Assembly: GCF_003261055.1 (NCBI RefSeq)
Contig: NZ_CP030073.1
Location: forward strand, 4,092,001 to 4,156,000
Direction: 5' to 3'
DNA: 64,000 bases
Source: Streptomyces cadmiisoli
GTDB taxonomy: Bacteria; Actinomycetota; Actinomycetes; Streptomycetales; Streptomycetaceae
In this document: one piece after another, positions 207-29,793 of the stretch
Position numbering within the stretch: the first letter of the stretch is position 1
How the letters are laid out: every line of letters begins with the position of its first letter
Program-made: the position numbers and the translations under genes
The notes under the pieces: generated by a model
The model's database searches: none
Told to the model about the DNA's origin: nothing
The model's input: the letters and a program-made list of their open reading frames with translations, nothing else

Positions 207-362
207 TCACAGTAGGTCGACCACTGCATCGATTGAGTTCCGAGCGCGCTTTGCGGCGTCATCGCGAATGCACCTGGCTTCCTGGATCTTTTCGCGGGCC
301 GCCTGGATCCCGTCGGGCGCGGAGTCCCGTTGCGCCGCAATCTTCTTGTCCGAGCCGGAGGC
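207..362 (-). pseudogene. Remnant resembling the mid-region of the T7SS substrate
   Basis: Directly after the stop codon of the gene ending at 363, and in the same frame, 51 open codons run to a TGA at 207-209 with no plausible start of their own. The peptide (…AREKIQEARCIRDDAAKRA…) resembles residues ~156-192 of the 429-residue protein encoded at 2233-3522 (…ARTKIERAKDIRDDAADRA…). I read it as the 3' remnant of a second substrate gene, cut by recombination or decay. A stop-codon read-through extension of the upstream gene is possible but less likely. Confidence 0.5.
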
Positions 363-911
363 TCAGAGCCAGCGCACCGAGTGAGCCATCGCCTCGCAGA
401 GGTTCCCCATCGGGCCCTGTGTCCCGCTCAGGGGGGTGGAGAAGGCCAGGTGGAGGTAGCCCGCGCCGCCCGGCATGTGGAGGTGGAAGTCCAGGTTCGT
501 CTCCGTGCGGACCCGGACCGTCCGGCCGGGCGGCAGGTCCACGACGTCCACCTCCGTCCCCGGTGCCGCGCGGCGGCCGAGCGTATCGGCCAGCTCGTCC
601 GGTGTCGGGGCCAGTCCGCGGGGCACCGGCGGCCACGAGATCAGCAGTGAGGCCGGCGGCGTCGCGTCGTCCGGGGACTCCGTACGGAGGTAGAACTCCA
701 GCGCACCGTGGGCGAGGCCGTTCTCCGCGGTGTTGCGGAGGGTGGCCCAGATGCCGCGAGCCACCTGCGGTGAGCTGCCGCTGCCGGCGAACTCCTTGTC
801 CACGAAGGTCTTCAGCTGTCCCCGCCAGCGCTCCCGCGTCAGGTCGATGCGGAACCAGTCCCGGGGAACGAGCAGACGGTAGTCCGAGGGCGGCGAGCCG
901 GTGGCGGTCAT
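363..911 (-). CDS. Unknown protein of the T7SS-like operon (Mog1/PsbP-like fold suspected)
   Basis: This 182-residue soluble protein has no signal peptide or membrane segment. The ATG at 909-911 overlaps the stop of the upstream gene (ATGA), so translation is probably coupled. The C-terminal third (…GYLHLAFSTP…MGNLCEAMAHSVRW) matches the layout of the upstream neighbour's end (…SVVMEMGTP…MFGNIVSSVRLF), suggesting the two are diverged paralogues. The ending, a hydrophobic strand followed by a helix ending in S-V-R, recalls Mog1/PsbP/LpqN-type folds; this is inference, not a database match. Co-transcription with ESX-like genes points to an accessory or chaperone role. Confidence 0.72.
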   Translation of the reverse strand: MTATGSPPSDYRLLVPRDWFRIDLTRERWRGQLKTFVDKEFAGSGSSPQVARGIWATLRNTAENGLAHGALEFYLRTESPDDATPPASLLISWPPVPRGLAPTPDELADTLGRRAAPGTEVDVVDLPPGRTVRVRTETNLDFHLHMPGGAGYLHLAFSTPLSGTQGPMGNLCEAMAHSVRWL

Positions 912-1612
912 GCTCCGGCCTCGGTGGTGACGAGCGGTGTGCCGTCCGAGTGGAACAGCCGGACGCTGCTGACGATGTTGCCGAACATGGTGGAGAAGAC
1001 GTCCCAGCCGGCCATCGTCGGGGTCCCCATCTCCATGACGACGCTGGTGCCGTTCGGCAGCGGGACGTAGACCCGTATGAAGGAGGTGGGGAACTGAAGC
1101 GCCTCCCCCGTCTCGGTGAGCTCGCCGGTGAGCTTCGCCTCCCGCGTGCCGATGCACGACACCGCCGGACCGCAGGGCAGGTCGATCCGGTCGACCTCGC
1201 CGGCCTCGACGCGGCGCAGACCGGACGCGATCGCCTTGACCGCGGCCGGGACCCCTTCGAGCTCGGTGTCCGGGCTGTCCACCAGGCTGACGAAGACCGT
1301 GGCCGTGCAGGGGGTGTCGTCGACCGCGGTCAGGCAGATGCCGGCGAACTCGGCACCGGCCGCCAGCAGGTCGTCCACGCCGAGCGCGCACATGACCGCG
1401 AACTTGGTCTTCTCCTCCTCCGGCGCTCCGGGCAGGACCTTGTCGGCGAGCTCCCCCAGCAGCGCCACCGCCTTGTCGTCGTCCTCCTCGTGGAGGGGGA
1501 TGTCGTGGAAGATCTCCGGCATCACCCAGCGGACATGGATGTCCGCGGCGTGCAGGGCGGGCGGTGCGAGGTGGGTGGGGATGAACTCCGACAGTTCGAG
1601 CTCGGTCGTCAC
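908..1612 (-). CDS. Unknown protein of the T7SS-like operon, probable paralogue of its neighbour
   Basis: A 234-residue soluble protein starting at a GTG (1610-1612) that overlaps the upstream gene's TGA (GTGA); its own stop overlaps the next gene's ATG. The N-terminal half contains an acidic stretch (LHEEDDDKAVALLGELADK). The C-terminal half has the strand-rich pattern shared with the protein at 363-911 and ends in a segment like the last helix of Mog1/PsbP-type domains. No catalytic motif is visible. Four-base overlaps on both sides show that it belongs to the operon headed by the ESX-like genes. Function unknown. Confidence 0.72.
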   Translation of the reverse strand: MTTELELSEFIPTHLAPPALHAADIHVRWVMPEIFHDIPLHEEDDDKAVALLGELADKVLPGAPEEEKTKFAVMCALGVDDLLAAGAEFAGICLTAVDDTPCTATVFVSLVDSPDTELEGVPAAVKAIASGLRRVEAGEVDRIDLPCGPAVSCIGTREAKLTGELTETGEALQFPTSFIRVYVPLPNGTSVVMEMGTPTMAGWDVFSTMFGNIVSSVRLFHSDGTPLVTTEAGA

Positions 1613-2181
1613 GGAGTCTGGTCCTTTGCGGGGATCGGGCGGTCGGGTGCCTCGGGGAAGAACTTCCGGGACGTGGCGTACATCCCGTAGTAGGGGTAGA
1701 GGCGCGGGATGTCGGCGCCGCCGCTGCGGGCGATGCCGACGATCTTCCGGTAGAGGCGGGCCCGGCAGCGCGTGTTGCGCAGGGACTCGTCCCGCAGGTC
1801 GCGCAGTCGCCACAGGAGGATCAAACCGCCGAGGACGAGGAGCAGCAGCGCGTCCACGACGACGAAGCCGATCTGGAACTCCCGGGACTTCTGCGAGGCG
1901 ACCAGGTCCCAGAACGGCCAGGCACCGAAGCCGAGGACGAAGACCGGCACGGCCAGGAGGCACCCCTGGGCGCCGGCCTTCGAGGTCTCCTCGCGCCGCT
2001 GATACAGCATCCAGTGCACCGCGCGGTCGTCGAGGAAGTCGAAGCGGACCTCGCGCCCGTGGCGCTCGGCCGCGGCCCTGGCCGCGGGCACCGCGGCGAT
2101 GGCCGCGGAGGGCACCATGGTGTGCGTCATCCCCTGGTCGTCGACGAACTTCCCGAATTCCAGGGCGTGGTAGTCACTCAT
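1609..2181 (-). CDS. Two-helix membrane protein of the T7SS-like operon
   Basis: A 190-residue protein with two hydrophobic segments at about residues 73-95 and 104-125, an N-terminal domain of ~70 residues and a C-terminal basic domain. I chose the ATG at 2179-2181 because AAGGAA lies about 9 bases upstream; an in-frame ATG 24 bases earlier (2205) has no ribosome binding site. It follows the candidate substrate gene by about 50 bases and overlaps the next gene by four. No family recognised. The context suggests an inner-membrane accessory to the secretion ATPase, as inference only. Confidence 0.7.
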   Translation of the reverse strand: MSDYHALEFGKFVDDQGMTHTMVPSAAIAAVPAARAAAERHGREVRFDFLDDRAVHWMLYQRREETSKAGAQGCLLAVPVFVLGFGAWPFWDLVASQKSREFQIGFVVVDALLLLVLGGLILLWRLRDLRDESLRNTRCRARLYRKIVGIARSGGADIPRLYPYYGMYATSRKFFPEAPDRPIPAKDQTP

Positions 2182-2232
2182 CAGCCGCATTTCCTTCTGG
2201 TCCATGACCCGGCCGCGGCCTGTACCGCGACC

Positions 2233-3522
2233 TCATCCCGCAGGCGCCAGCGCACCGTGGAACGACGTCGACGACGGGCTCGGCTGCGGTGTCGGCGACG
2301 GGGTGCGTGTCTCGTTCGACGGGCTGGGTGTCGGGGCCGGCGTGGGCCGGGGCCTGGCCTCCCCGGGCGGCGGGCTCACCTGGTTGGGTTCACCGTCCGG
2401 GTTGATGTAGTTCCGCAGCCTGATCAGGCTGTGCACGTACGCGTTGCCCAGCGCGGCGCCCTTGATGTACCGGGTGACCAGCTCGGGGTCGAAGCCACCC
2501 GCGGGGAGCCGCACCTTGGTGATGCCCTTGCTGGTCAGGTACTTGGATGCCCAGACGACACCCTTGTTGAAGTTCTTCACGGCGAAACCGTTGGTGAAGC
2601 CGGCCCACACCGCCTGCCGGGCGACCAGCAGACGGGAGCCCTTGGCCGCGGCCGAGAGCCCCTTCAGGGCGCCGAGGCCCGGGATGATGCCCAGCACGTC
2701 GAACGTGATCTTCAGCCAGTCGAACTTGCCGCCCCGGGCGAAGACGTCGTACAGCCGGCCCGCCAGGGCGGTGGCGCTCAGCGCGGAGGCCAGGCCGACG
2801 AGCAGCACCGCGGCGAGACCGCCGGTCAGGACGACCGCGGCCACCAGCGCCAGGACCGCCACGACCGTGGCGGCGGTGGAGATCCAGTCGGCGTTGTCCG
2901 CGATCCAGTTCATGATTCCGCCGGGATCTCGCACGCCGTCGTGGTGGATCACGTACTTGATCTTCTTGGCGGCGCGGTCGGCGGCGTCGTCCCGGATGTC
3001 CTTGGCCCGCTCGATCTTGGTGCGTGCCTTCGCCATCAGGAGCGCGGCGTCGTCCCGGTTCTTGCCCTGCTTGGTCCGTTCGGTGTGGTCGTCCTTGGAG
3101 GGGACCGTCCCCTCGAACGGCTCCAGGGCCTTGAGAGCGGCCTTGTGATCGACCTCCGCCGCGCGGAACTCCTCCAGCCCCTTGTCCGCGAGCTTCTGAG
3201 CACGGTGCAGTTCGCTGGCGTACTCCGCGGACTCGCCGTCGCCCTCGACGACCTTGGTGCCGAGGGCGCTCGACGCCTCGTCGTACCGGTCGTAGGCCTT
3301 CTTCAGGCGTCCCGCGGTGTCGTCGGCTATCTCGTGGAAGGCTCGGCCCGCGTCGCTGTCCCATCCGTCGACCGACGCGAGAGCGCGGATGTTGCGCGCC
3401 TGCTTGTCGATCTCGTCGGCCATGCCGCGCAGCTTCTTGCCGAGTCGAGCCACCTCGTACGGGTCACCGGGCACCGGGTCGGAGTCGTACAACGGTGACC
3501 AGTCCTTCGGACGGGCAGTCAC
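2233..3522 (-). CDS. Candidate type VII-secreted protein with membrane segments
   Basis: This 429-residue protein starts at GTG (3520-3522), immediately after the TAA of the ESX-like gene. Residues 1-100 are helical and contain a WxG-like turn (GWDSDAG, ~53-59) and a YxxxD motif (YDRYD, ~77-81), the pairing that marks T7SS substrates. Charged, coiled-coil-like helices run to ~195. A hydrophobic double segment follows (~213-255), then a mixed domain, then a Pro/Thr/Ser-rich tail (~385-420). No nuclease, NADase or peptidase signature is visible. The layout resembles LXG-like or ESX effectors, and a membrane-inserting role is possible, but the activity is unknown. Confidence 0.75.
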   Translation of the reverse strand: MTARPKDWSPLYDSDPVPGDPYEVARLGKKLRGMADEIDKQARNIRALASVDGWDSDAGRAFHEIADDTAGRLKKAYDRYDEASSALGTKVVEGDGESAEYASELHRAQKLADKGLEEFRAAEVDHKAALKALEPFEGTVPSKDDHTERTKQGKNRDDAALLMAKARTKIERAKDIRDDAADRAAKKIKYVIHHDGVRDPGGIMNWIADNADWISTAATVVAVLALVAAVVLTGGLAAVLLVGLASALSATALAGRLYDVFARGGKFDWLKITFDVLGIIPGLGALKGLSAAAKGSRLLVARQAVWAGFTNGFAVKNFNKGVVWASKYLTSKGITKVRLPAGGFDPELVTRYIKGAALGNAYVHSLIRLRNYINPDGEPNQVSPPPGEARPRPTPAPTPSPSNETRTPSPTPQPSPSSTSFHGALAPAG

Positions 3523-3834
3523 TTACTTCTCCTTCTTCCCGTTCTTCTTGGCGTCCCGGAGCGCGTTCGCGAGCTCGTGGTCGATGTCCTCGTACGCCTT
3601 GGCCGCGTTCCCGGTGTACTTGGCGAGGTTCTCGATGTCCTCCATCAGCTTCTTGCGGTTCTTCTTCCACGTCTGGGAGAAGTCGTCGAAGATGTCGCGG
3701 AGTTTCCCGCTGCCGAGTGCGTCACCGTACTCGTCCGCGGGATTGCCGTTGTCCTTGAACTCGCGGTGCATCCGGTAGAGCGAGTCCGAGCAGTCCTTGA
3801 TCAGGTCGAGGTCGTACCGCGTTCTGTCTGCCAC
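3523..3834 (-). CDS. ESX/WXG100-like small secreted protein (103 aa)
   Basis: The length, all-helical composition and position beside an FtsK/SpoIIIE secretion ATPase fit the WXG100 superfamily. The expected W-x-G turn is not intact: the likely hairpin position reads LGSGKLRDIF, and the only Trp (W56) lies just after it. A YxxxD secretion motif (YEDID, residues 81-85) precedes a Lys-rich C-terminus. The start is GTG with GAGGAAG about 13 bases upstream. The downstream substrate gene starts with no gap, suggesting coupled translation and possibly a heterodimer or co-secreted complex. Confidence 0.8.
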   Translation of the reverse strand: MADRTRYDLDLIKDCSDSLYRMHREFKDNGNPADEYGDALGSGKLRDIFDDFSQTWKKNRKKLMEDIENLAKYTGNAAKAYEDIDHELANALRDAKKNGKKEK

Positions 3835-3874
3835 CCGTTCAGACTTTCTTCCTCAAGGGCCGCCGGTACGGGGG

Positions 3875-3903
3875 GCGGTGGGGCGCACGAGGCGCCCCAC
3901 CGC
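3875..3903 (-). terminator. Hairpin between the two ESX-like genes
   Basis: A perfect 12-bp inverted repeat (GCGGTGGGGCGC and its complement) with a 5-base loop lies about 30 bases downstream of the first ESX-like gene and ~40 bases upstream of the second. There is no U-run. It could be a partial terminator or an mRNA-stabilising element that makes the first gene more abundant than the rest of the operon. Confidence 0.6.
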
Positions 3904-3932
3904 TCACCCGGACAGCGCGACGGCCACCGGCG

Positions 3933-4241
3933 TCAGGAGCTCTTGGCGCTCTTGGCCAGCTGCTCGTCCAGCTGCTCGTAGGCCTCCTTGGCCTTCTTCA
4001 GGAACTCGGACATGCCCTCGAGTCCCTCCATGGCCTTCTTCGCGCCCTTGGTGAAGTCCTTGAAGGACTCCTCGAAGGCGGCCGAGCCCTTCTGGGTGGT
4101 GTAGCCGTTCTCGACGAGCGCGCGAATACGGTCGTCGATGCTGTCGAGTTCGCCGTGCAGCCGGTGCATGTCCTTCAGAAGCTTGCCGGCTTCCTTGTCC
4201 ATCTCGGCATATGTGATATCTGCGTCTTTGCCCTTGGCCAT
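3933..4241 (-). CDS. ESX/WXG100-like small secreted protein (102 aa), operon head
   Basis: A 102-residue helical protein. The central turn reads NGYTTQKGSAAF instead of a canonical WXG, and the C-terminal helix carries YxxxD (YEQLD, residues 88-92). The ATG at 4239-4241 has a strong site (GGGAGGGAG). It is the first gene of the minus-strand operon and diverges from the ATPase gene across ~300 bp. By family knowledge such proteins form helical-hairpin dimers recognised by EccC/EssC through the C-terminal YxxxD tail. The missing Trp is odd and shared in spirit with its neighbour. Confidence 0.82.
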   Translation of the reverse strand: MAKGKDADITYAEMDKEAGKLLKDMHRLHGELDSIDDRIRALVENGYTTQKGSAAFEESFKDFTKGAKKAMEGLEGMSEFLKKAKEAYEQLDEQLAKSAKSS

Positions 4242-4306
4242 GACGGCTCCCTCCCGTTATGTACGCCGCAGGGCCTACCCCCGTGGCTCTGTACCCGCGG
4301 AGCCCC

Positions 4307-4375
4307 GGCCGTCGGCTGTCGGCCCTCGGCCATCGATCACCGGCCGTCGGCCATCGGTCATCGGCCGTCGCATCC
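4307..4375. repeat. 21-bp imperfect tandem repeat in the divergent T7SS promoter region
   Basis: Units beginning GGCCGTCGGC or GGCCCTCGGC start at 4307, 4321, 4342 and 4363; the two middle units are 21 bp long and differ at a few positions, and the outer ones are shorter. The array lies in the 304-bp gap between the ESX-like operon and the ATPase gene, about 65 bp from the former. It may be a regulator-binding array or a slippage-prone spacer. No clear -10/-35 pair could be assigned in the gap. Confidence 0.6.
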
Positions 4376-4545
4376 GCGTGAGCAAAGATCTTACGGGTGG
4401 GGCCGTTGTGATCCCAGGGGCGTTGTGCGAGCGGATCGTGAACTCCTGCACATCCCGGTACACGGGTGAAAGACGAGGCGGCTAAGGTCACTGCGTTGCC
4501 TGAAGCGTTCCGGGGGGCGGCCTCAGCCCAGCGAGGAGGACGAAC

Positions 4546-7500
4546 GTGCGCCTGAGCCTGACCGTCGTCGATCCGATCGGCGGGGCCGCCGCCGATGTGG
4601 TGCTCGACGCCGATCCGGAGTCCAGCGTCGGCGACATCACACAGGAGTTGGCGCGTCAGATCGGTCTCGGGGACAGCGCCCGCGTCATCCCGATCGGCGG
4701 TCGGCGCGGCCCCGGTGGCGACGCTCCGCACGCCTACGTCGACGGATACGCGCTCGATCCGGCCGCCACCGTTGCCGGTTCGCCGCTGCGCGAGGGCGCC
4801 GTCGTCAGCCTGCACGATCCCGCCGGGTGTGTGATGGGCGAGCCGACCGGGGTCGTGGAGTTCCGTGTCGTCGGCGGTCCGGGGGCGGGTGCGGTGCACC
4901 GGCTCGGGGTCGGGCGGTACGACATCGGCAGCGGTACTGCCGCCCGGATCCGCGTCGACGACCCCGAACTCGCCCCGCGCGCCGCCACGTTGTCCATCGC
5001 CATGGACGGCACCTGCCGGATCACCGTCCACCCGCAGCACGGCGAGACCCCGGGCCAGAACACCACCACCGGCGACTCCGGCGCCCGGAACCCCGGTGCC
5101 CGGAACTCCGCCGCCCCCGGCTCCACGGCCCGGCCCTCCGGCGCCGACGACGAGAGCACGAGCGGCCGCGGCCGCAAGGGCAAGGGCAAGAAGAAGAGCC
5201 GGGACGAGGACCGCACCGAGGACCCCGACGACAGCGGTGTCCGTCTCGACGGTGAGCCGCTCGACGGCGACTCCTGGCCGCTCGGCGCCCAACTCGCCGT
5301 CGGCAACAGCCTGTTGGAGATCAAGGCGTACACGCCGCCCGACGCGGCCCTGAAGTGGTCCGAGGACGGCACGGGTCTGGACTACAACCGTCCGCCGCGC
5401 CTGCGGCCCGCCGAGCGGCAGACCCGGTTCCGGCTGCCGTCTCCGCCCGGCGACTTCGAGGCCCGCCCGCTGCCCTGGCTGATGGCGCTGTTCCCGCTGG
5501 TCGGCGCGGTCGTCATGGTGCTGATCTTCCAGCGCTGGTACTACCTGATCATGGCTGTGCTGAGCCCGATCATGCTGTTCGGCAACTACTTCATGGACAA
5601 GAAGCACGGCCGCAAGTCCCATGCCAAGCAGCTGAAGGAGTACAAGGAGACCAAGGAGCGGATCGAGAAGGACGCCCAGGACGCCCTGGTCGTGGAGCGG
5701 TCGGACCGTCGGCACGCGATACCCGACCCGTCCGCCGTCCTCGCGTTCGGCACCGGCCCGCGCACCCGGCTGTGGGAGCGCCGCCGTACCGACGCCGACC
5801 ATCTGCTGCTGCGGGTCGGCACCGGCCGGGTCCCCTCCGAGGTGGTGCTCGACGACCCGGAGCAGGACGACCACAGGCGCGAGGTCACCTGGCACATCGA
5901 GGACGCGCCGGTCGCGCTGCCGCTCAAGGACCTCGGGGTCGTGGGCCTGGCGGGTCCCGGTGACTCCGCGCAGGCGCTGGGGCGTTGGGCGGTGGCCCAG
6001 ACGGCGGTGCTGCACAGCCCGATGGACGTGCAGTTCTATGTGCTGACCGAGAACGAGGCCCACCCCCGCTGGGACTGGGTCCGCTGGCTGCCGCACTCCC
6101 GGCCCTCCGGCGGCCAGGACGTCAACGTGCTGATCGGCACGGACTCCGAGACCGTCGGCGCCCGCGTCGGCGAGCTGACCCAGCTGCTGGACGCCCGCCA
6201 GAAGGCGCTGAAGGAGGGTGGCGCCCGGGCCGACGGCGGTCCGGCCTTCTCCGACCCGGACATCGTCGTCGTCTGGGACGGCTCGCGGCGGCTGCGGTCC
6301 CTGCCGGGCGTCGTACGGCTGCTGCGCGAGGGCCCGGCGGTCTCCATCTACGCGCTGTGCCTGGACGAGGAGGAGCGGTTCCTGCCGGGCGAGTGCCAGG
6401 CCGTCGTCGTCGCCGAACCGCGCCGGCGCCCCGACCGGGCCGACGCGGCGGTGCCGCAGGCCGTCGCCGCGCCCGGCGGCTTCCCCTCCTTCCAGGCCTG
6501 GCACCCGGCCGCCGGACAGCCGGGCGAGGAGCACAGCCCGGCGCCCGAGCTGCGGCTGCGGGTCGAGCAGAGCGGGGCCCGGCGCATCACGGAGGTGCGG
6601 CCCGACTTCGTCTCGTCCGCCTGGTGCGTACGGCTGTCGCGGTCGCTGTCCCCGGTGCGCGACATCAGCGGTGAGACGGAGGACTCGGCGCTGCCCGCCG
6701 CCAGCCGTCTGCTGGACGTCCTCCAGCTGGAACCGCCGACGCCGGACGGGATCGGCGCGCGGTGGCGGATGGGCGGACAGTCGACGATGGCGGTGATCGG
6801 CGAGTCGTACGACGGGCCGTTCGGCATCGACCTGCGCAAGGACGGCCCGCACGGTCTGATCGCCGGTACGACCGGTTCCGGCAAGTCGGAGCTGCTGCAG
6901 ACCATCGTGGCGGCGCTGGCGGTGGCGAACACACCGGAGAACATGACGTTCGTGCTCGTCGACTACAAGGGCGGCTCGGCGTTCAAGGACTGCGTCAAGC
7001 TGCCGCACACCGTCGGCATGGTCACCGACCTCGACGCCCACCTCGTCGAGCGCGCCCTGGAGTCGCTGGGCGCCGAGCTGAAGCGGCGCGAGCACATCCT
7101 GGCCGCCGCCGACGCCAAGGACATCGAGGACTACCAGGATCTGGTGCGCCGGGACCCCTCGCAGGCGCCCGTGCCCCGGCTGCTCATCGTGATCGACGAG
7201 TTCGCGTCGATGGTCCGCGACCTGCCGGACTTCGTCACGGGCCTGGTGAACATCGCGCAGCGGGGCCGTTCGCTCGGCATCCACCTGCTGCTGGCGACCC
7301 AGCGGCCCAGCGGTGTCGTCTCACCGGAGATCCGCGCCAACACCAACCTGCGGATCGCGCTGCGGGTGACCGACGCGGGCGAGTCCAGCGACGTCATCGA
7401 CGCGCCGGACGCCGGTCACATCTCCAAGAGCACGCCGGGCCGGGCGTACGTACGGCTCGGGCACGCCTCGCTGATCCCGTTCCAGTCCGGGCGGGTCGGC

Positions 7501-9291
7501 GGGCGCCGTCCGGGCGCGGCGGATCCGGCGGCACTCGCGCCGTGGGCCGGTGAGCTGTCCTGGCAGGACCTCGGGCGGGCCGCGCTGCGCAAGCCGAAGT
7601 CCGAGGCCCGTGAGGAGGAGGAGATCACGGACCTGAAAGTGCTGGTGGACGCGGTGCGCGAGGCGAACACGGCGCTGGGCATCCCGGCGCAGCACTCCCC
7701 GTGGCTGCCCGCGCTGGAGGAGTCGCTGCTGCTGGACGACATCCCGGCGGTGGCCGCCCGGGGCGCGTTGCCGGCGGCGCCGTACGGTGTCGAGGACCTG
7801 CCCGGCGACCAGGCCCGCCGCCCGGTCGCCGTCGACTTCGCCACCTTCGGGCACCTGCTGGTCGGCGGCGCCCCGCGCACCGGCCGTTCGCAGCTGCTGC
7901 GGACCGTCGCCGGTTCCCTGGCGCGTACGAACTCCTGCGCCGACGTGCACCTGTACGGCGTCGACTGCGGCAACGGCGCGCTGAACGCGCTGACCCGGCT
8001 GCCGCACTGCGGGGCGGTCGTCGGACGCAACCAGACCGAGCGTGTCGTCCGCCTGTTCACGCGGCTGTCCGGTGAACTCACCCGGCGCCAGGACCTGTTG
8101 GCGGAGAAGGGCTTCGCCGACATCGGCGAGCAGCGGGCGGCGGCCGGGTCCGGGGACGAGCGGCTGCCGCACATCGTGCTGCTGCTGGACCGCTGGGAGG
8201 GCTGGCTGCCGACGCTGGGCGAGTACGACCACGGCGATCTCACCGACCGGCTGATGGCGATGATGCGCGAGGGCGCGAGTGTCGGCATCCATGTGGTCAT
8301 CACCGGTGACCGCCAGGTGCTCGCGGGCCGGATCTCCTCGCTGACCGAGGACAAGTACGGTCTGCGGCTCGCCGACCGGGGCGATTTCTCGATGCTGGAC
8401 ATCAACTCCCGCAAGGTGCCCGAGGAGATCCCGCCGGGCCGCGCGTTCCGCAACGAGACGGCGACGGAGACGCAGTTCGCGCTGCTCGACACGGACACGT
8501 CCGGTCAGGGCCAGGCCGCAGCGCTGGTCGCGATCGGCGAGTCGGCCGCGGCCCGGGACTCGGACGTGCCGCGCTCGCGCCGCCCGTTCCGCGTGGACGT
8601 GCTCCCCAACCGGATCTCCTTCGCGGACGCGTACGCGATGCGCGACCCGGAGACGAGCGGCTCGCCGCTGTGGGCGCTGGTCGGTGTCGGCGGCGACGAG
8701 CTCACCGCGTTCGGCCCGGACCTGGCCGAGGGGGTGCCGGCGTTCGTGGTCGGCGGTCCGGCCAAGTCGGGCCGCAGCACGGTGCTGCTGAACTTCGCCC
8801 GCTCCTACCTGGCGCGGGGCGTGCGGCTGGTGATCGCGGCGCCGCGCCCGTCGCCGCTGCGGGAGCTGGAGGGTCAGGAGGGCGTGCTGCGGGTGTTCAC
8901 CGGCCGCGACATCGACGAGGACGAGCTGGAGGAGGCGATCAAGCCGGCGTCGCCGGAGCAGCCGGTGGTGGTGCTCGTCGACGACGCCGAGGTCCTGGAC
9001 GACTGCGACGCGGAGGACGTCTTCAAACGCATCCTGCAGAGCGGTACCGAGGACGGCGTCGCGTTCGTCATCGCCGGTGACGAGGAGGAGATCTGCGACG
9101 GCTTCTCCGGCTGGCAGGTCGACGCGAAGAAGGCCCGCCGCGGCGTGCTGCTGTCCCCGCAGGAGACGTCGTCCGGCGAACTGATCGGCATCCGTACGAC
9201 CCGCAGCATGGTGGGCGGTCCCATCGCCCCCGGCAAGGGCATGCTGCACCTCGGCAGCGGCGAGCACAGCACGGTCACGACACCGATGTGA
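4546..9291 (+). CDS. EccC/EssC-type FtsK/SpoIIIE secretion ATPase with N-terminal FHA-like region
   Basis: A 1581-residue membrane ATPase expected to drive type VII export. Residues ~1-90 look like a ubiquitin-like (YukD-type) fold; ~105-255 look like an FHA domain interrupted by a Pro/Ser/Lys-rich insert. Two membrane helices lie at ~309-348. Three FtsK-type modules follow. The first has a canonical Walker A (GTTGSGKS, ~773-780) and Walker B (LLIVIDEF, ~881). The second (GAPRTGRS, ~1107) and third (GPAKSGRS, ~1403) have Arg in place of the P-loop Lys and lack the DE pair. GTG start with AGGAGG upstream. The FHA-then-ATPase order is that of firmicute EssC rather than mycobacterial EccC. Confidence 0.9.
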   Translation: MRLSLTVVDPIGGAAADVVLDADPESSVGDITQELARQIGLGDSARVIPIGGRRGPGGDAPHAYVDGYALDPAATVAGSPLREGAVVSLHDPAGCVMGEPTGVVEFRVVGGPGAGAVHRLGVGRYDIGSGTAARIRVDDPELAPRAATLSIAMDGTCRITVHPQHGETPGQNTTTGDSGARNPGARNSAAPGSTARPSGADDESTSGRGRKGKGKKKSRDEDRTEDPDDSGVRLDGEPLDGDSWPLGAQLAVGNSLLEIKAYTPPDAALKWSEDGTGLDYNRPPRLRPAERQTRFRLPSPPGDFEARPLPWLMALFPLVGAVVMVLIFQRWYYLIMAVLSPIMLFGNYFMDKKHGRKSHAKQLKEYKETKERIEKDAQDALVVERSDRRHAIPDPSAVLAFGTGPRTRLWERRRTDADHLLLRVGTGRVPSEVVLDDPEQDDHRREVTWHIEDAPVALPLKDLGVVGLAGPGDSAQALGRWAVAQTAVLHSPMDVQFYVLTENEAHPRWDWVRWLPHSRPSGGQDVNVLIGTDSETVGARVGELTQLLDARQKALKEGGARADGGPAFSDPDIVVVWDGSRRLRSLPGVVRLLREGPAVSIYALCLDEEERFLPGECQAVVVAEPRRRPDRADAAVPQAVAAPGGFPSFQAWHPAAGQPGEEHSPAPELRLRVEQSGARRITEVRPDFVSSAWCVRLSRSLSPVRDISGETEDSALPAASRLLDVLQLEPPTPDGIGARWRMGGQSTMAVIGESYDGPFGIDLRKDGPHGLIAGTTGSGKSELLQTIVAALAVANTPENMTFVLVDYKGGSAFKDCVKLPHTVGMVTDLDAHLVERALESLGAELKRREHILAAADAKDIEDYQDLVRRDPSQAPVPRLLIVIDEFASMVRDLPDFVTGLVNIAQRGRSLGIHLLLATQRPSGVVSPEIRANTNLRIALRVTDAGESSDVIDAPDAGHISKSTPGRAYVRLGHASLIPFQSGRVGGRRPGAADPAALAPWAGELSWQDLGRAALRKPKSEAREEEEITDLKVLVDAVREANTALGIPAQHSPWLPALEESLLLDDIPAVAARGALPAAPYGVEDLPGDQARRPVAVDFATFGHLLVGGAPRTGRSQLLRTVAGSLARTNSCADVHLYGVDCGNGALNALTRLPHCGAVVGRNQTERVVRLFTRLSGELTRRQDLLAEKGFADIGEQRAAAGSGDERLPHIVLLLDRWEGWLPTLGEYDHGDLTDRLMAMMREGASVGIHVVITGDRQVLAGRISSLTEDKYGLRLADRGDFSMLDINSRKVPEEIPPGRAFRNETATETQFALLDTDTSGQGQAAALVAIGESAAARDSDVPRSRRPFRVDVLPNRISFADAYAMRDPETSGSPLWALVGVGGDELTAFGPDLAEGVPAFVVGGPAKSGRSTVLLNFARSYLARGVRLVIAAPRPSPLRELEGQEGVLRVFTGRDIDEDELEEAIKPASPEQPVVVLVDDAEVLDDCDAEDVFKRILQSGTEDGVAFVIAGDEEEICDGFSGWQVDAKKARRGVLLSPQETSSGELIGIRTTRSMVGGPIAPGKGMLHLGSGEHSTVTTPM

Positions 9292-9313
9292 CGGCCCGGC
9301 CGGTGAGCGGGGC

Positions 9314-9354
9314 GACGGGTGAGCGGGGCGCCTGCGGGCGCCCCGCTCACCCGT
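9314..9354. terminator. Bidirectional terminator between the secretion ATPase and the kinase
   Basis: A perfect 19-bp stem (GACGGGTGAGCGGGGCGCC and its complement) with a 3-4 base loop lies 22 bases after the ATPase stop and overlaps the last codons of the converging kinase gene. It is placed to end both transcripts. Confidence 0.8.
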
Positions 9355-11005
9355 CCGGCGCCGGCTGCTCGACCTTGGACATCCGGGCCTGCGGCTTCCC
9401 CGACTCCTCGCTGTCCGACTCGTAGCGCAGGTCGTCCCCGACCGGCACGAGGCGCACCGTGGTCTCCGCCGGATTGCACCCGCCGTGGTTGTCCTCGGCG
9501 CCGACGGAGGTCGCGACGAGCTGTTCGTCCGTGACCTGCTTCAGGGTCAGTACGTCGACGCAGACACCGCCGATCTGGTCGGTCTGGCGCAGCCGGCCCA
9601 GTTCCCGGCCGACCTGTGCGTCCCGGACGGTGATGCGGAACGTGCCGAGGGGCAGGTTGCCGTCGAGGGCGGTGCCCTGGCCCTCCCAGGTGCCGAGGTA
9701 GCGCCGGGGGACGGCGGAGGCGGCGCTCGACGGGGACGCCTCGCCCGGCGACGTGTAGCGGGACGAGGGTGTGGTGTCGCCGGCGGCGTCCTTGCCCTCG
9801 CCGGGCAGCAGGTCGAACACGAACACCGACCCGACGGTCACCGCCGCGAGCGCCCCGGCGACCGCCAGCGCGACCGTGCAGCTCAGTCGCCGCCCCCGCC
9901 CGTCGGACTCCGGAGCCGCGGACGCGGCGACCGTCACGGACACCTTGCCGGGGCGGTCGGCCGGTGCGGGGGGCGCGTCTTGCGGTGGGGCCGCGGGCGC
10001 CCCGGACGCGCCCGGCGGCATGGTCGGCGGCGGCCCGAACTCCCCGGCGGCCGCGTGCGGACTGACCGCGGGACTGCTGAACCCCACGGGCCCCGACGGG
10101 GCGTCCCCGGCGGCCTCCAGATTCAGCAGCCGTACGGCGCTCCGGCTGACCTGTTCCACCAGTGCCCCCGGCAGCCAGCCGCCGGCGACCAGCCGCGCCG
10201 CCCCCTCGGGCGCGAGCCGCCGGGCCACCTCCTGCGGGGCCGGGCGCCCGGCCGGGTCCTTCGTCAGGCACGCCGCGACGATCTCCCGCAGCCCGCCCTC
10301 CAGGGTGCCCAGGCGCGGCTCCTCGTGGACGACCTTGTAGAGGAGTGCGGCCGAGGAGTCCCCGGGGAAGGGCGGCTCGCCGGTCGCGGCGTAGGCGAGG
10401 ACCGCGCCGAGGGAGAAGACGTCGGCGCTCCCCGCCACCCCTGACCCGAGGATCTGCTCGGGTGCCATGTATCCGGGGGAGCCGACCGAGACGCCGGTGG
10501 AGGTCAGCGAGGCCGTGCCGGCCGTGGCGCGGGCGATGCCGAAGTCGATCAGCAGGGGTCCGTCCAGGGTCAGCAGCACGTTGGACGGTTTCACGTCCCG
10601 GTGCACCAGCCCCAGTTCGTACACCGCGGCAAGTGCCTCGGCGAGGCCCGCGCCGAGCGCTCGTACGGAATGCGCGGGCAGCGGGCCGCCGTCCGCGACC
10701 GCCGCGGCGAGCGAGGGTCCGGCGACGTAGGCGGTCGCGACCCACGGCACGGCCGCGTCCGGGTCGGCGTCCAGCACGGGCGCGGTCCAGGCGCCGCCCA
10801 CCCGCCGCGCGGCCTCCACCTCGCGGCGGAACCGGGCGCGGAACTCCTCGTCGAGCGCGAAGTGCGGGTGCACGGCTTTCACCGCGACGGTGCGGCCCCC
10901 GGCACTGCGGCCGAGGTACACCCGGCCCATCCCGCCGGAGCCGAGCCGGCCGAGCAGCCGGTACGGCCCGATGGTCGCGGGCTCGTCGGCCCCGAGCGGC
11001 TGCAT
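9347..11005 (-). CDS. Transmembrane serine/threonine protein kinase (PknB-like)
   Basis: 552 residues. The kinase domain (~12-270) is complete: Gly loop (LGSGGMG, 21-27), Lys43, HRDVKPSN (135-142), DFG (154-156), APE (181-183). A Pro/Ala-rich juxtamembrane stretch, one membrane helix (~375-399) and an extracellular C-terminal domain of ~150 residues follow; the latter contains two Cys and no PASTA repeat. The gene converges on the EssC-like ATPase, whose FHA-like region could read phospho-Thr marks; a functional link is inference. The gene on its upstream side is mqnA, likewise on the minus strand, about 60 bp away. Confidence 0.93.
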   Translation of the reverse strand: MQPLGADEPATIGPYRLLGRLGSGGMGRVYLGRSAGGRTVAVKAVHPHFALDEEFRARFRREVEAARRVGGAWTAPVLDADPDAAVPWVATAYVAGPSLAAAVADGGPLPAHSVRALGAGLAEALAAVYELGLVHRDVKPSNVLLTLDGPLLIDFGIARATAGTASLTSTGVSVGSPGYMAPEQILGSGVAGSADVFSLGAVLAYAATGEPPFPGDSSAALLYKVVHEEPRLGTLEGGLREIVAACLTKDPAGRPAPQEVARRLAPEGAARLVAGGWLPGALVEQVSRSAVRLLNLEAAGDAPSGPVGFSSPAVSPHAAAGEFGPPPTMPPGASGAPAAPPQDAPPAPADRPGKVSVTVAASAAPESDGRGRRLSCTVALAVAGALAAVTVGSVFVFDLLPGEGKDAAGDTTPSSRYTSPGEASPSSAASAVPRRYLGTWEGQGTALDGNLPLGTFRITVRDAQVGRELGRLRQTDQIGGVCVDVLTLKQVTDEQLVATSVGAEDNHGGCNPAETTVRLVPVGDDLRYESDSEESGKPQARMSKVEQPAPDG

Positions 11006-11065
11006 GGCGCCCCCCTGTCCCCCCCTACGCCTCCACTTGCCCGCAGCGTATAGGCCCCGCGCCCG

Positions 11066-11923
<858 letters not shown>

Positions 11924-12014
11924 CTAGACCCTGGAGGAGGGGGACCGGCCGGGGCCCCTCGGTCATCCGGCGGTATCCCTGTCAAACGTTCGGGTGACGT
12001 GATCTTGACCTCTA

Positions 12015-12042
12015 TTGCTTTCGGCAGGCTGCGTGCTAGGCT
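12015..12042 (+). promoter_or_regulatory. Candidate cold-shock gene promoter and long 5' leader
   Basis: TTGCTT (12015-12020) and TAGGCT (12037-12042) are spaced 16 bp apart and resemble a vegetative (HrdB-type) promoter. Transcription would start near 12049, leaving a leader of ~155 bases before the ATG at 12203. Long structured leaders acting as cold sensors are known for csp genes. AGGAGG is present ~10 bases before the start codon. Confidence 0.45.
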
Positions 12043-12202
12043 CGCCCGCAAGTTGCAGTTTGGTTTCCCTTGCAGTACAGAGCCTGCGGAGCATGTGACC
12101 GCGGGCTCTCGTCGTTCTCAGACGGGTGCAGTTGTGCAGAATCTCGATCTTCACACTTGCTGGTTCTGGAGCAGGGCAACCCTTTGAGCCCAAGGAGGGC
12201 TT

Positions 12203-12406
12203 ATGGCTACCGGAACCGTGAAGTGGTTCAACGCCGAAAAGGGCTTTGGTTTCATCGCCCAGGAAGGCGGCGGCCCCGACGTCTTCGTCCACTACTCCGC
12301 GATCAACGCGAGCGGCTTCCGCTCCCTCGAGGAGAACCAGCAGGTGTCCTTCGACGTCACCCAGGGTCCGAAGGGCCCGCAGGCGGAGAACGTCACCCCG
12401 GTGTGA
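12203..12406 (+). CDS. Cold-shock domain protein (CspA family)
   Basis: A 67-residue single cold-shock domain, the usual length. The RNP1 motif (KGFGFI) and RNP2 motif (VFVHY) are both intact, with the typical start [17 protein letters not shown]. It binds single-stranded nucleic acid and acts as an RNA chaperone. AAGGAGGGC precedes the ATG. The gene stands alone, with its own candidate promoter, long leader and terminator. Confidence 0.97.
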
Positions 12407-12441
12407 TCTGATCCTCTGATCCGGATCGAGTGCAGTACCCA

Positions 12442-12482
12442 AGGAGCCCCGCGCCATTCGGCGACGGGGCTCCTGCCTTTTC
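12442..12482 (+). terminator. Rho-independent terminator of the cold-shock gene
   Basis: AGGAGCCCC (12442-12450) pairs perfectly with GGGGCTCCT (12466-12474), followed by GCCTTTT. It begins 35 bases after the csp stop codon. Confidence 0.85.
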
Positions 12483-12509
12483 CGCGCTGCGAATTCCTCG
12501 GGAATTCCT

Positions 12510-12842
12510 CCGTCCGCTTTCTTCGGACATGCCGCACGAGCAGCACGAACTTTGTCCCGAATTCCTGCGCCTCGTACGTATGCGGGACATCTACGCGATA
12601 GGACATCCAGTCCCCGGGTCCCAGTTCGACCTGCGCGTCGCGCGGTCCCGCTTTCACTCGCCCCGCACTGACCACGATGTGTTCCACGGTTCCCGGAATG
12701 TGCGGATCGGATGCGCGATCCGCACCGGGCTCCGGCGGAACGGCGTGGATGTCACGCGGCACGCCGACCCTCACTCGAACGACCGTTCGCCGCGACGAGG
12801 GCGCCGATGCCTCCATCGCGGGGAACGCGCGTTCGAAACAAC
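12510..12842 (-). pseudogene. Decayed XRE/cupin-type regulator (C-terminal cupin remnant)
   Basis: About 100 open residues read as the cupin half of an XRE-cupin regulator: HIPGTVEHIVVSAGRVKAGP, then LGPGDWMSYRVDVPHTYEA, then FVLLVRHV. A TGA lies just upstream in frame, no helix-turn-helix is seen in any frame up to 13095, and the frame runs on through the csp terminator instead of stopping after the domain. Third positions are less GC-rich than in neighbouring genes. The rest of 12483-13095 holds nothing else I can name, apart from a short GC3-biased open stretch near 12929-13046. Confidence 0.6.
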
Positions 12843-13095
12843 GCCGTCAGTCCCGCCCGGCGCGAAGCGGCACCGCCCGGAGCTGAGTCGCTGAGGCGGC
12901 CGTTCCTTTCGAAGCGTGATCGTGAGTCTCAGGCGCGATCCCCGGCCCGAAAGTCCGCCGGCCGGACGCGCCCGCGGTCGATCACTGCGATCCCGCTGCC
13001 CAACCCGATGCCGCACATGCCGCACACGCTGCCCGGCGCCCCGCACCCCCGGGCAACCGGCTCTTCGCGGGCTCCGCGCCGTGCCGCGGTCCGGC

Positions 13096-19940: not shown

Positions 19941-20618
19941 TCAGGTGGTGGTGCGTGAACCGCCGCCCAGTTCGCCCTTCCAGCGTCGGTAGAGCGTGTG
20001 GGGGACACCCGCCGCGTCGAGGACGCGCCCGGCGACGAAGTCGACGAGGTCCTGGATGTGCGTGGCGCCCGCGTAGAAGCCGGGGGAGGCGGGCACGACG
20101 ATCGCTCCCGCGTCGTCCAGGGTGACCAGATGCCGCAGGGTCTGCCCGTTCAGCGGCGCCTCCCGCACGGCGACGACCAGCGCGCGCCCTTCCTTCAGGG
20201 TGACGCTCGCCGCGCGTTGCAGCAGATCCTTCGACAGGCCGAGCGCGACACCGGCGACGGACGCGGTCGAGGCGGGCACGATCAGCATGCCCTTGGCCGG
20301 ATACGACCCGGAGGACGGCCCCGCCGCCAGGTCCCCGGCGCTCCAGTGCCGCACTCCCGAGATGTCCACCTCGAACGTCCCGGGCTTGCCGTCCGCGCCG
20401 CGGGCCAGCCATTCGCGCAGGTCGTCCTGCCAGTGCGCGTCCCGGAAGGGCAGCCCGGTCTCGTCGAGCAGCGTCAGCCGCGAGGCCCTGCTGACCACCA
20501 GGTCGACGCTCTCCCCCGCCTGGAGCAGCGCGCGCAGCACCGCGGCCGCATACGGCGTACCGGATGCTCCGGAGACCCCCACGATCCAAGGCGTGCGCTG
20601 CGATTCCCCTGCGTTCAC
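19941..20618 (-). CDS. mqnM: UbiX-type flavin prenyltransferase (MqnM)
   Basis: A 225-residue UbiX/Pad1 homologue. Motifs: GVSGASGTPYAAAVLRALL near the N-terminus, IVPASTASVAGVALGLS in the middle and VPASPGFYAG near the C-terminus. It makes prenylated FMN, the cofactor of UbiD-type decarboxylases. I chose the GTG at 20616-20618, which gives the usual short lead-in; an upstream in-frame GTG (20666) would add 16 residues. It lies beside the UbiA and UbiD homologues and probably activates the latter. Confidence 0.92.
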   Translation of the reverse strand: MNAGESQRTPWIVGVSGASGTPYAAAVLRALLQAGESVDLVVSRASRLTLLDETGLPFRDAHWQDDLREWLARGADGKPGTFEVDISGVRHWSAGDLAAGPSSGSYPAKGMLIVPASTASVAGVALGLSKDLLQRAASVTLKEGRALVVAVREAPLNGQTLRHLVTLDDAGAIVVPASPGFYAGATHIQDLVDFVAGRVLDAAGVPHTLYRRWKGELGGGSRTTT

Positions 20619-29343: not shown

Positions 29344-29793
29344 ATGGATCACACACAGGCACGGCGTTGGCTCGGCACCGCCGTCGCGGAGGCCCGCGCC
29401 GGGCTCGCCGAGGGCGGCATCCCGATCGGCGCCGCGCTGTACGACGCGCACGGCACCGTTCTCGGCCGCGGCCGCAACCGCCGTGTCCAGGACGGCGACC
29501 CCTCGACGCACGCGGAGACGGCCGCGTTCCGTGCCGCGGGACGGCAGCGCTCCTACCGCGGCACGACGATGGTCACCACGCTCTCGCCGTGCTGGTACTG
29601 CTCGGGCCTGGTCCGGCAGTTCGGCATCTCCCGGGTGGTGATCGGCGAGGCGGTCACGTTCCGGGGCGGGCACGACTGGCTGGCGGAACACGGCGTGGAG
29701 ATCGTGCTCGTCGACGATCCCGAGTGCGTCGCGATGATGCGCGACTTCATCGAGGACAACCCGGCCCTGTGGCACGAGGACATCGGCGAGTGA
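29344..29793 (+). CDS. Yeast-type cytosine/nucleoside deaminase
   Basis: 149 residues of the CDA superfamily. Zinc and catalytic motifs are intact: HAET (His ligand and catalytic Glu) and PCWYC (two Cys ligands). The overall layout and the C-terminal stretch (…VEIVLVDDPECVAMMRDFI) resemble fungal cytosine deaminase Fcy1 rather than the bacterial CodA amidohydrolase. ATG at 29344. Likely pyrimidine salvage; the base specificity is inferred. Confidence 0.9.
   Translation: MDHTQARRWLGTAVAEARAGLAEGGIPIGAALYDAHGTVLGRGRNRRVQDGDPSTHAETAAFRAAGRQRSYRGTTMVTTLSPCWYCSGLVRQFGISRVVIGEAVTFRGGHDWLAEHGVEIVLVDDPECVAMMRDFIEDNPALWHEDIGE

Follow-up and report, generated by a model that had tools for sequence, protein, structure and literature searches.

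A type VII-like secretion locus of Streptomyces cadmiisoli with an ATPase bearing ubiquitin-like and FHA-like domains and variable cassettes of putative substrates

The window analysed here is a stretch of 64,000 nucleotides from the soil bacterium Streptomyces cadmiisoli (assembly GCF_003261055.1, contig NZ_CP030073.1, forward-strand positions 4,092,001-4,156,000), whose genome comprises 10.2 Mb in two contigs. We examined a locus in this window that consists of an EssC/EccC-type ATPase gene, a divergent six-gene operon (genes A-F) and a convergent kinase gene (Table 1). Genes A to F of the operon encode, in this order, a WXG100 protein, a WXG100-like partner protein, a T7SS_signal protein, a membrane protein and two members of one protein family (E and F). 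The ATPase matched the FtsK_SpoIIIE family of Pfam (e-value 3.9e-57), so that the locus holds the broad type VII combination of an FtsK/SpoIIIE membrane ATPase and a WXG100 protein. A reading made from the sequence only had proposed a type VII-like locus in which ESX-like proteins and a substrate candidate are encoded divergently from the ATPase, and these matches, together with those of genes A, B and C, bear it out; its starting point at position 207 was too far out, as the operon ends at 363 and the gene caller placed no gene in positions 1-362. Gene C has a WXG/T7SS_signal N-terminus, a transmembrane (TM) hairpin (residues 214-254) and a proline-rich tail, while the kinase has an N-terminal kinase domain, a TM segment (378-396) and a C-terminal part that is predicted to be extracellular.

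Table 1 Genes of the locus, in window coordinates
Feature	Position	Strand	Basis
ATPase, EssC/EccC-type, 1581 aa	4546..9291	+	Open reading frame, Pfam, NCBIfam, profiles, TM call; domain bounds approximate
Gene A, WXG100 protein, 102 aa, YxxxD motif near C-terminus	3933..4241	-	Pfam PF06013, e-value 1.4e-11
Gene B, WXG100-like helical protein, 103 aa, YxxxD; cassette partner of C	3523..3834	-	Clusters with A
Gene C, substrate candidate, 429 aa	2233..3522	-	PF21725 T7SS_signal, e-value 1.9e-9; TM call
Gene D, membrane protein, 198 aa, 2 TM; cassette-specific accessory, immunity candidate	1609..2205	-	TM call, cassette context
Gene E, Mog1/PsbP-fold protein, 234 aa, chaperone candidate	908..1612	-	AlphaFold and fold matches
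Gene F, second E-family protein, 182 aa	363..911	-	E-family profile match, e-value 6.3e-12
Membrane Ser/Thr kinase, 552 aa, convergent neighbour, possible regulator	9347..11005	-	Pkinase, e-value 2.1e-35

The ATPase reading frame is intact, begins with GTG and encodes, in order, a ubiquitin-like region (residues ~1-92), an FHA-like region (~103-265), a TM segment and FtsK/SpoIIIE modules. A profile built from 34 N-termini (32 of the window type and two shorter paralogues) matched ubiquitin-fold structures over profile positions 16-81 (best e-value 1.7e-6, to a designed ubiquitin) and FHA structures over a separate stretch, 103-186 (best e-value 8.2e-13), in agreement with the two regions that had been read from the sequence. 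Pfam searches of the same N-termini at an e-value of at most 0.1 found the FHA-like family PF16697 in 25 and PF00498 in 10 of them, and YukD in just two (best e-value 0.0098); the window ATPase alone matched PF16697 with an e-value of 4.4e-4, below the cut-off. Its FHA-like domain holds a low-complexity insert of ~70 residues, and the residues of the FHA phosphothreonine motif, read by eye, are lost in it and kept in the ATPases of loci L134, L138 and L166. A single-sequence AlphaFold model of residues 1-325 was too poor to support anything (mean predicted local distance difference test, pLDDT, 42.6). As for the two helices expected in the chain, that at residues 309-327 passes the threshold and the other is a hydrophobic stretch (~331-349) seen by eye only. 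The three expected FtsK modules likewise correspond to three P-loops read by eye and to two stretches in Pfam. The first P-loop (GTTGSGKS) is intact, while the second (GGAPRTGRS) and third (GGPAKSGRS) have Arg in the place of Lys; patterns for these two failed on many relatives, so they were read by eye in the window protein only, and the conservation of the first P-loop among the compared relatives is by construction, since they had been picked by it.

All three NCBIfam models scored the ATPase below their curated cut-offs: 568 against 778 bits for EssC (TIGR03928), 415 against 509 for EccCa and 322 against 347 for EccCb. Its best sequence relatives in the PDB were 4nh0 (e-value 4.2e-87), listed as a cell-division FtsK/SpoIIIE protein and presumably an EccC, and YukB (e-value 9.3e-71). 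Searching the genome with the ATPase returned nine further, weaker match segments, which include two ESX loci and a 1158-residue FHA-FtsK paralogue whose sequence aligns with residues 1-161 (two-sequence BLAST, e-value 3e-6). The paralogue gene (locus L010, C1:5437500-5457400 of this genome; positions 9608-13084, minus strand) encodes a ubiquitin-like and, by eye, canonical FHA N-terminus with an intact FHA motif, followed by FtsK modules, and is adjoined by two Ser/Thr kinase genes; no gene of the A, B or C family was found in the 20 kb fetched around it.

In an IQ-TREE phylogeny of 45 ATPase cores, rooted at the midpoint, four EccC proteins formed one branch (support 100/100) and two Bacillota EssC proteins together with L157 another (100/100), and both joined at 100/98. 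The window ATPase fell outside them, in a Streptomyces group of eight (100/100), and the same-phylum ATPases L159-L162 and L164 stood on the EccC/EssC side of the next branches (93/86 and 96/97). A position of the window ATPase outside the branch of EccC and Bacillota EssC is thus supported; the tree does not establish one new clade, and the deep actinomycete forks are partly open.

The genome's two ESX loci lie elsewhere and hold EccC, EccD, EccB, mycosin and WXG100 genes (named by eye; EccB confirmed). EccB matched nowhere in the genome except at these two loci. Over the stretch that starts 10 kb before the window and runs to its position 20,540, the EccB, EccD, mycosin, EccA and EccC models were not the best match of any gene, in line with the earlier statement that EccB, EccD and mycosin are missing beside the ATPase, and no complete ESX locus lies just outside. 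The EccB, EccD, MycP and EccA profiles, all of them derived from the respective two copies in this genome, were also no gene's best match in 80 fetched related loci or 20 class-wide neighbourhoods; the MycP profile does match in L176. The EccE model had its sole genome match, a weak one, at C1:1832159-1832515 (e-value 1.9e-5), far from the ESX loci, both of which it misses too, so that it gives poor guidance here. EssB (PF10140) and EssA (PF10661) had no match in the whole genome, while the Bacillus subtilis control was positive for both.

To describe the conservation of the locus, we used the best 80 of 170 confirmed loci (79 from Streptomyces and one from Kitasatospora), whose ATPases share 62-88% identity in the best-matching segment. 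Gene-content counts refer to the 73 loci with at least 8 kb upstream, the seven shorter ones being dropped, and protein clustering (c-numbered clusters) took in 85 sources. An A/B-family gene adjoins the ATPase divergently in 72 of the 73 loci, the exception being L077, where two such genes lie downstream. Gene C is present in 65 loci (one copy in 37, two in 27, three in one) and missing from eight; an A/B-family gene precedes it in 76 of 94 cases, and an E-family gene follows within four same-strand genes in 73 of 94 (76 including c13, 79 including c13 and c11). Membership of the E family is better supported for c13 (98%) than for c11, for which it is weak (hhalign probability 45%). The numbers of C and E-type genes per locus are correlated (rho 0.49), part of which is perhaps caused by short loci holding fewer of both. 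In 58 of 70 loci (ten with short flanks dropped), a kinase of the window's cluster is no more than 3 kb away.

The genes that accompany C differ between its subclasses. At 40% identity, 100 C proteins fell into subclasses of 36, 20, 9, 7, 6, 3, 3 and 3 members plus 13 singletons. The window's subclass (20 members) has 14 D and 36 E-family genes downstream, and the 36-member subclass has 32 E-family genes, with c24 (14), c19 (12) or c11 (18). In the next subclasses, E-family genes occur alone (9/9), with c13 (7/7) or with x41 (5/6); c13 is the sole accompanying gene in one three-member subclass, and most singletons lack all of these. This comparison of neighbourhoods across Streptomyces, which had been put forward together with the first reading of the locus, shows that the ATPase and gene A are retained, and that the operon is made up of hypervariable B-C-(accessory)-E cassettes, of which the window holds one variant.

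Several further observations concern the surroundings of these cassettes. A second B-C-E cassette lies far from the ATPase in the same genome (L175, C1:5466001-5486000; positions 5908-10780), preceded by the same c8-c7 pair that stands upstream of the window locus (L009:8317-9974, window -1683 to -26). Proteins c8 and c7 are lipoprotein-like and secreted-looking, respectively, have no Pfam match in L009 at an e-value of at most 0.01, and belong to clusters found in 45 and 54 of the 85 sources; the c8 profile is loose and labels an unrelated lipoprotein in L010 too. Another pair of an E-family and an A/B-family gene is located at L009:135-990 (window -9865 to -9010). On the other side of the locus, MqnA-like and cold-shock-like genes (window 11066-12406; named by eye) belong to clusters present in 63 of the 85 sources, and their recurrence beside the locus suggests a fixed chromosomal site.

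Beyond these close relatives, residues 1-480 of the ATPase matched 97 of 101 family genomes at an e-value of at most 0.001, many of these matches being the shorter paralogue or other ATPases, and 53 of 118 class-wide genomes at 1e-10 or below, among which other ATPases may be included. Of 20 class-wide N-termini inspected, L133 starts late and L135 shows no FHA. E-type genes (e-value at most 1e-6) were found in eight of 116 genomes, seven of them among the 53 with an ATPase match (the exception is G033), and in five of the eight the two genes share a contig and are ~10 kb or less apart. Where E stood away from the ATPase, the four places inspected all showed B-C-E. Among 72,556 plasmid records, 58 matched the ATPase at an e-value of at most 1e-30, 17 of them over at least 80% of the query, and many of the others are annotated as EccC. 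The Curtobacterium plasmid pTCL carries a seven-gene run of a WXG100 gene (A), B, C, a further gene, E, another further gene and the ATPase; of the six genes other than the ATPase, four match families of the window, and the one that takes the place of D has just a weak match to c11 (17 bits). Relatives of the locus therefore occur across Actinomycetes and on plasmids, and because ATPase relatives recur so widely, the suggestion that the system is a reduced one appears doubtful.

Since 40 members of the E/F family gave no good Pfam match (two stray ones had e-values of 0.016 and 0.045), the fold of E was predicted. The AlphaFold model (pLDDT 89.4; predicted template modelling score 0.85) matches, in a structure comparison, the Mog1/PsbP fold, with no EspG-type chaperone among the 50 matches listed; TM prediction found no TM segment in E. 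PsbP/MOG1 proteins have been proposed as adaptors between toxins and the type VI secretion system (T6SS) (PMC3482391), which is the nearest printed precedent for E as a chaperone, and Mog1/PsbP proteins have been called diagnostic of T6SS export (PMC12419801).

We then compared sequence distances of E (76 C-E pairs), B (80 C-B pairs) and the ATPase (90 rows) with those of four parts of C, whose bounds were set in steps of ~100 residues and not by structure. E correlated most highly with the TM part (0.72), followed by the WXG part (0.57), coil (0.54) and tail (0.54), while B followed the WXG part (0.63) and coil (0.67) rather than the TM part (0.33) or tail (0.27). The ATPase followed none of them (0.05-0.07), and shared descent of ATPase and cassettes was rejected on these uncorrelated distances. 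Every part of C correlated with E beyond 500 permutations; therefore, the claim rests on the difference between parts. After removal of near-copies, which left 33 of 66 modules, bootstrapping of the differences showed that the preference of B for the WXG part and coil holds (5% bounds 0.18 and 0.16), and that E still tracked the TM part over the tail (0.57 vs 0.41; 5-95% range of the difference 0.03 to 0.30). In the same reduced set, the lead of the TM part is not clear over the WXG part (-0.09 to 0.27) or coil (-0.08 to 0.31). In the larger set, F (55 rows, taken as c11, c13 or a second E-family gene) tracks the WXG part most (0.67, against 0.58 for the TM part), a result at odds with a simple two-chaperone picture. 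Taken together, B covaries with the WXG and coil region of C and E somewhat more with its TM hairpin, whereas the ATPase covaries with neither.

These data also bear on whether E and F might be immunity proteins, which would bind the toxic part of C inside the producer and leave another role to D. We regard this as unlikely: E tracks the TM part over the tail even with near-copies removed, it has no predicted TM segment, and the subclass-specific membrane proteins (D, c24) appear better placed to provide immunity.

The neighbourhood raises a different alternative, in which the ATPase would work for the neighbouring Tad pilus or in envelope biology generally, and the cassettes would encode pilus-linked adhesins or surface proteins, not weapons. 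Tad genes lie ~7-13.5 kb upstream of the window ATPase (L009:1009-7363), between it and the distant E-family and A/B-family pair mentioned above, and Tad proteins occur in at least eight of the 80 fetched loci, whose flanks are limited, in L166, and in four of 20 class-wide loci (L119, L121, L123 and L129), in the latter directly next to the ATPase or to a small gene adjoining it (a WXG100 gene in L119). Moreover, the subtypes T7SSg and T7SSh of the type VII secretion system (T7SS) are reported beside Tad genes in Bacillota (PMC11217815). However, no Tad protein is encoded in the 14-20 kb fetched around 16 of the 20 class-wide ATPases, bar one BTAD-type match in L132, no Tad gene is annotated in 24 kb of the Curtobacterium plasmid locus, and Rhs homologues of C were found, which point to toxins. 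A pilus-related role thus seems quite improbable. In L119 (12756-15788), L121, L123 and L129, a large protein with membrane stretches seen by eye and a BTAD domain (by Pfam in L119) is also encoded beside the Tad and ATPase genes.

Overall, we lean, without great confidence, towards a minimal type VII subtype of actinomycetes that exports TM-bearing C substrates, with B as a partner like the Lap proteins of LXG toxins and E as a chaperone like the Eag proteins of T6SS effectors. In such a system, the ATPase would form the membrane channel and motor, as EccC and EssC do, and its fused ubiquitin-like and FHA-like domains would replace EccD or EsaB/EssB. Protein A would be the general WXG100 component and the C proteins the substrates. 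Before export, B may pack on the helical N-terminus of C, as Lap does for LXG toxins, while E, perhaps with F, would keep the TM hairpin of C shielded for as long as it is in the cytoplasm, in the manner of Eag chaperones. Exported C would then act on or through a membrane, with the producer protected by D or an equivalent protein, and the convergent membrane kinase may regulate the system. The cassettes would be exchanged between strains while the ATPase and A stay, an arrangement that would seem to lend itself to competition among neighbouring bacteria. A bolder proposal is that the locus represents a subtype outside the published T7SSa-j (as set out in the available text of PMC11217815), in which a ubiquitin-FHA ATPase replaces several parts and exports membrane-inserting effectors via Eag-like chaperones, with swapped cassettes for Streptomyces kin recognition or antagonism and an old link to Tad; we think it rather doubtful that all of this holds. 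If our interpretation is true, a widespread type VII subtype would be added for actinomycetes, a single ATPase would unite ubiquitin-like and FHA functions that other T7SSs hold on separate proteins or lack, Mog1/PsbP proteins would work with type VII substrates and not with the T6SS alone, and competition between Streptomyces strains would gain a testable basis.

Work on actinomycete secretion of this kind has centred on ESX. The S. coelicolor counterpart of the locus is presumably SCO4508, and in the open-access literature searched that tag leads to one paper, on promoters. The closest paper among those listed, on subtypes T7SSa-j, has no occurrence of "Streptomyces" in its main text (PMC11217815), and a Streptomyces T7SS has been treated by ESX models (PMC8401907). 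No description of the locus was found among the open-access titles and abstract beginnings listed; subscription papers, preprints and supplements lay outside this scope, so a prior description is possible. Two smaller observations on the window may be recorded: a PHROGs scan gave weak matches only (best e-value 0.02), and ARAGORN called a tRNA-Trp and a tRNA-Glu gene that overlap at 29454-29641 (95 and 97 bases) and are probably not both real.

Compared with known systems, the locus resembles T7SSb in its outline, namely an FtsK-type ATPase with FHA, a WXG100 protein, helical substrates beside small WXG100-like partners, and strain-variable substrate clusters. However, T7SSb ATPases are reported with two FHA domains and T7SSa ATPases with none (PMC9600267), and in Bacillota EsaB/YukD is a separate ubiquitin-like protein and EssA, EssB and EsaA belong to the core (PMC9600267, PMC10765036), whereas the window ATPase has one FHA-like and a fused ubiquitin-like domain. 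With EssA and EssB unmatched in the genome, TIGR03928 below its cut-off and the ATPase outside the EssC branch, membership in T7SSb was rejected; the firmicute-style EssC architecture of the sequence-only reading is not supported, and "T7SSb-like" applies to the outline but not to EssA, EssB, the two FHA domains, TIGR03928 or the tree. With T7SSa (ESX), the locus shares an ATPase with a TM segment and FtsK modules as well as WXG100 proteins. It was rejected as a T7SSa member because EccB, EccD and mycosin are not beside the ATPase, which also lies outside the EccC branch. Its ubiquitin-like/FHA-like N-terminus was not seen by eye in the genome's two ESX EccC proteins.

T7SSd, known from Olsenella and Bifidobacterium, is the only subtype besides T7SSa that is reported in Actinomycetota by PMC11217815, and a divergent member of a published subtype would most likely belong here: T7SSd likewise combines a WXG100 protein and a membrane Ser/Thr kinase with an ATPase that bears FHA, and such a kinase adjoins the window ATPase and flanks most related loci. 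This assignment is nevertheless very unlikely in our view. T7SSd is described there as lacking a ubiquitin-like protein, a domain that is fused to the window ATPase, and as having conserved phosphothreonine motifs, while that of the window looks degraded. It is also described with TsdH and TsdI, neither of which was seen at the window, where no TsdH or TsdI model was run; the gene calls, which covered the 10 kb before the window and its first 20 kb, included no TsdI-sized protein besides the ATPase. In addition, the possible T7SSd-type ATPase L157, whose identity is not proven and near which no TsdI-sized gene was called, groups with Bacillota EssC.

Among chaperones and partners, the T6SS Eag proteins (EagT6 and SciW; PMC7773334) are like E in their Mog1/PsbP fold, in being encoded beside TM-bearing proteins, and in the covariation of E being highest with the TM segment. 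They differ in that E and F have no Pfam family and E stands beside type VII-like, not T6SS, genes, where its binding to C is an inference. For B, the closest parallel is provided by the Lap partners of LXG toxins (PMC10765036). Although there is one B per C in the window, compared with pairs or three for Lap in that paper, and B was assigned no Pfam DUF of the Lap kind, both are helical proteins of ~100 residues that are encoded just before the substrate and covary with its helical N-terminus.

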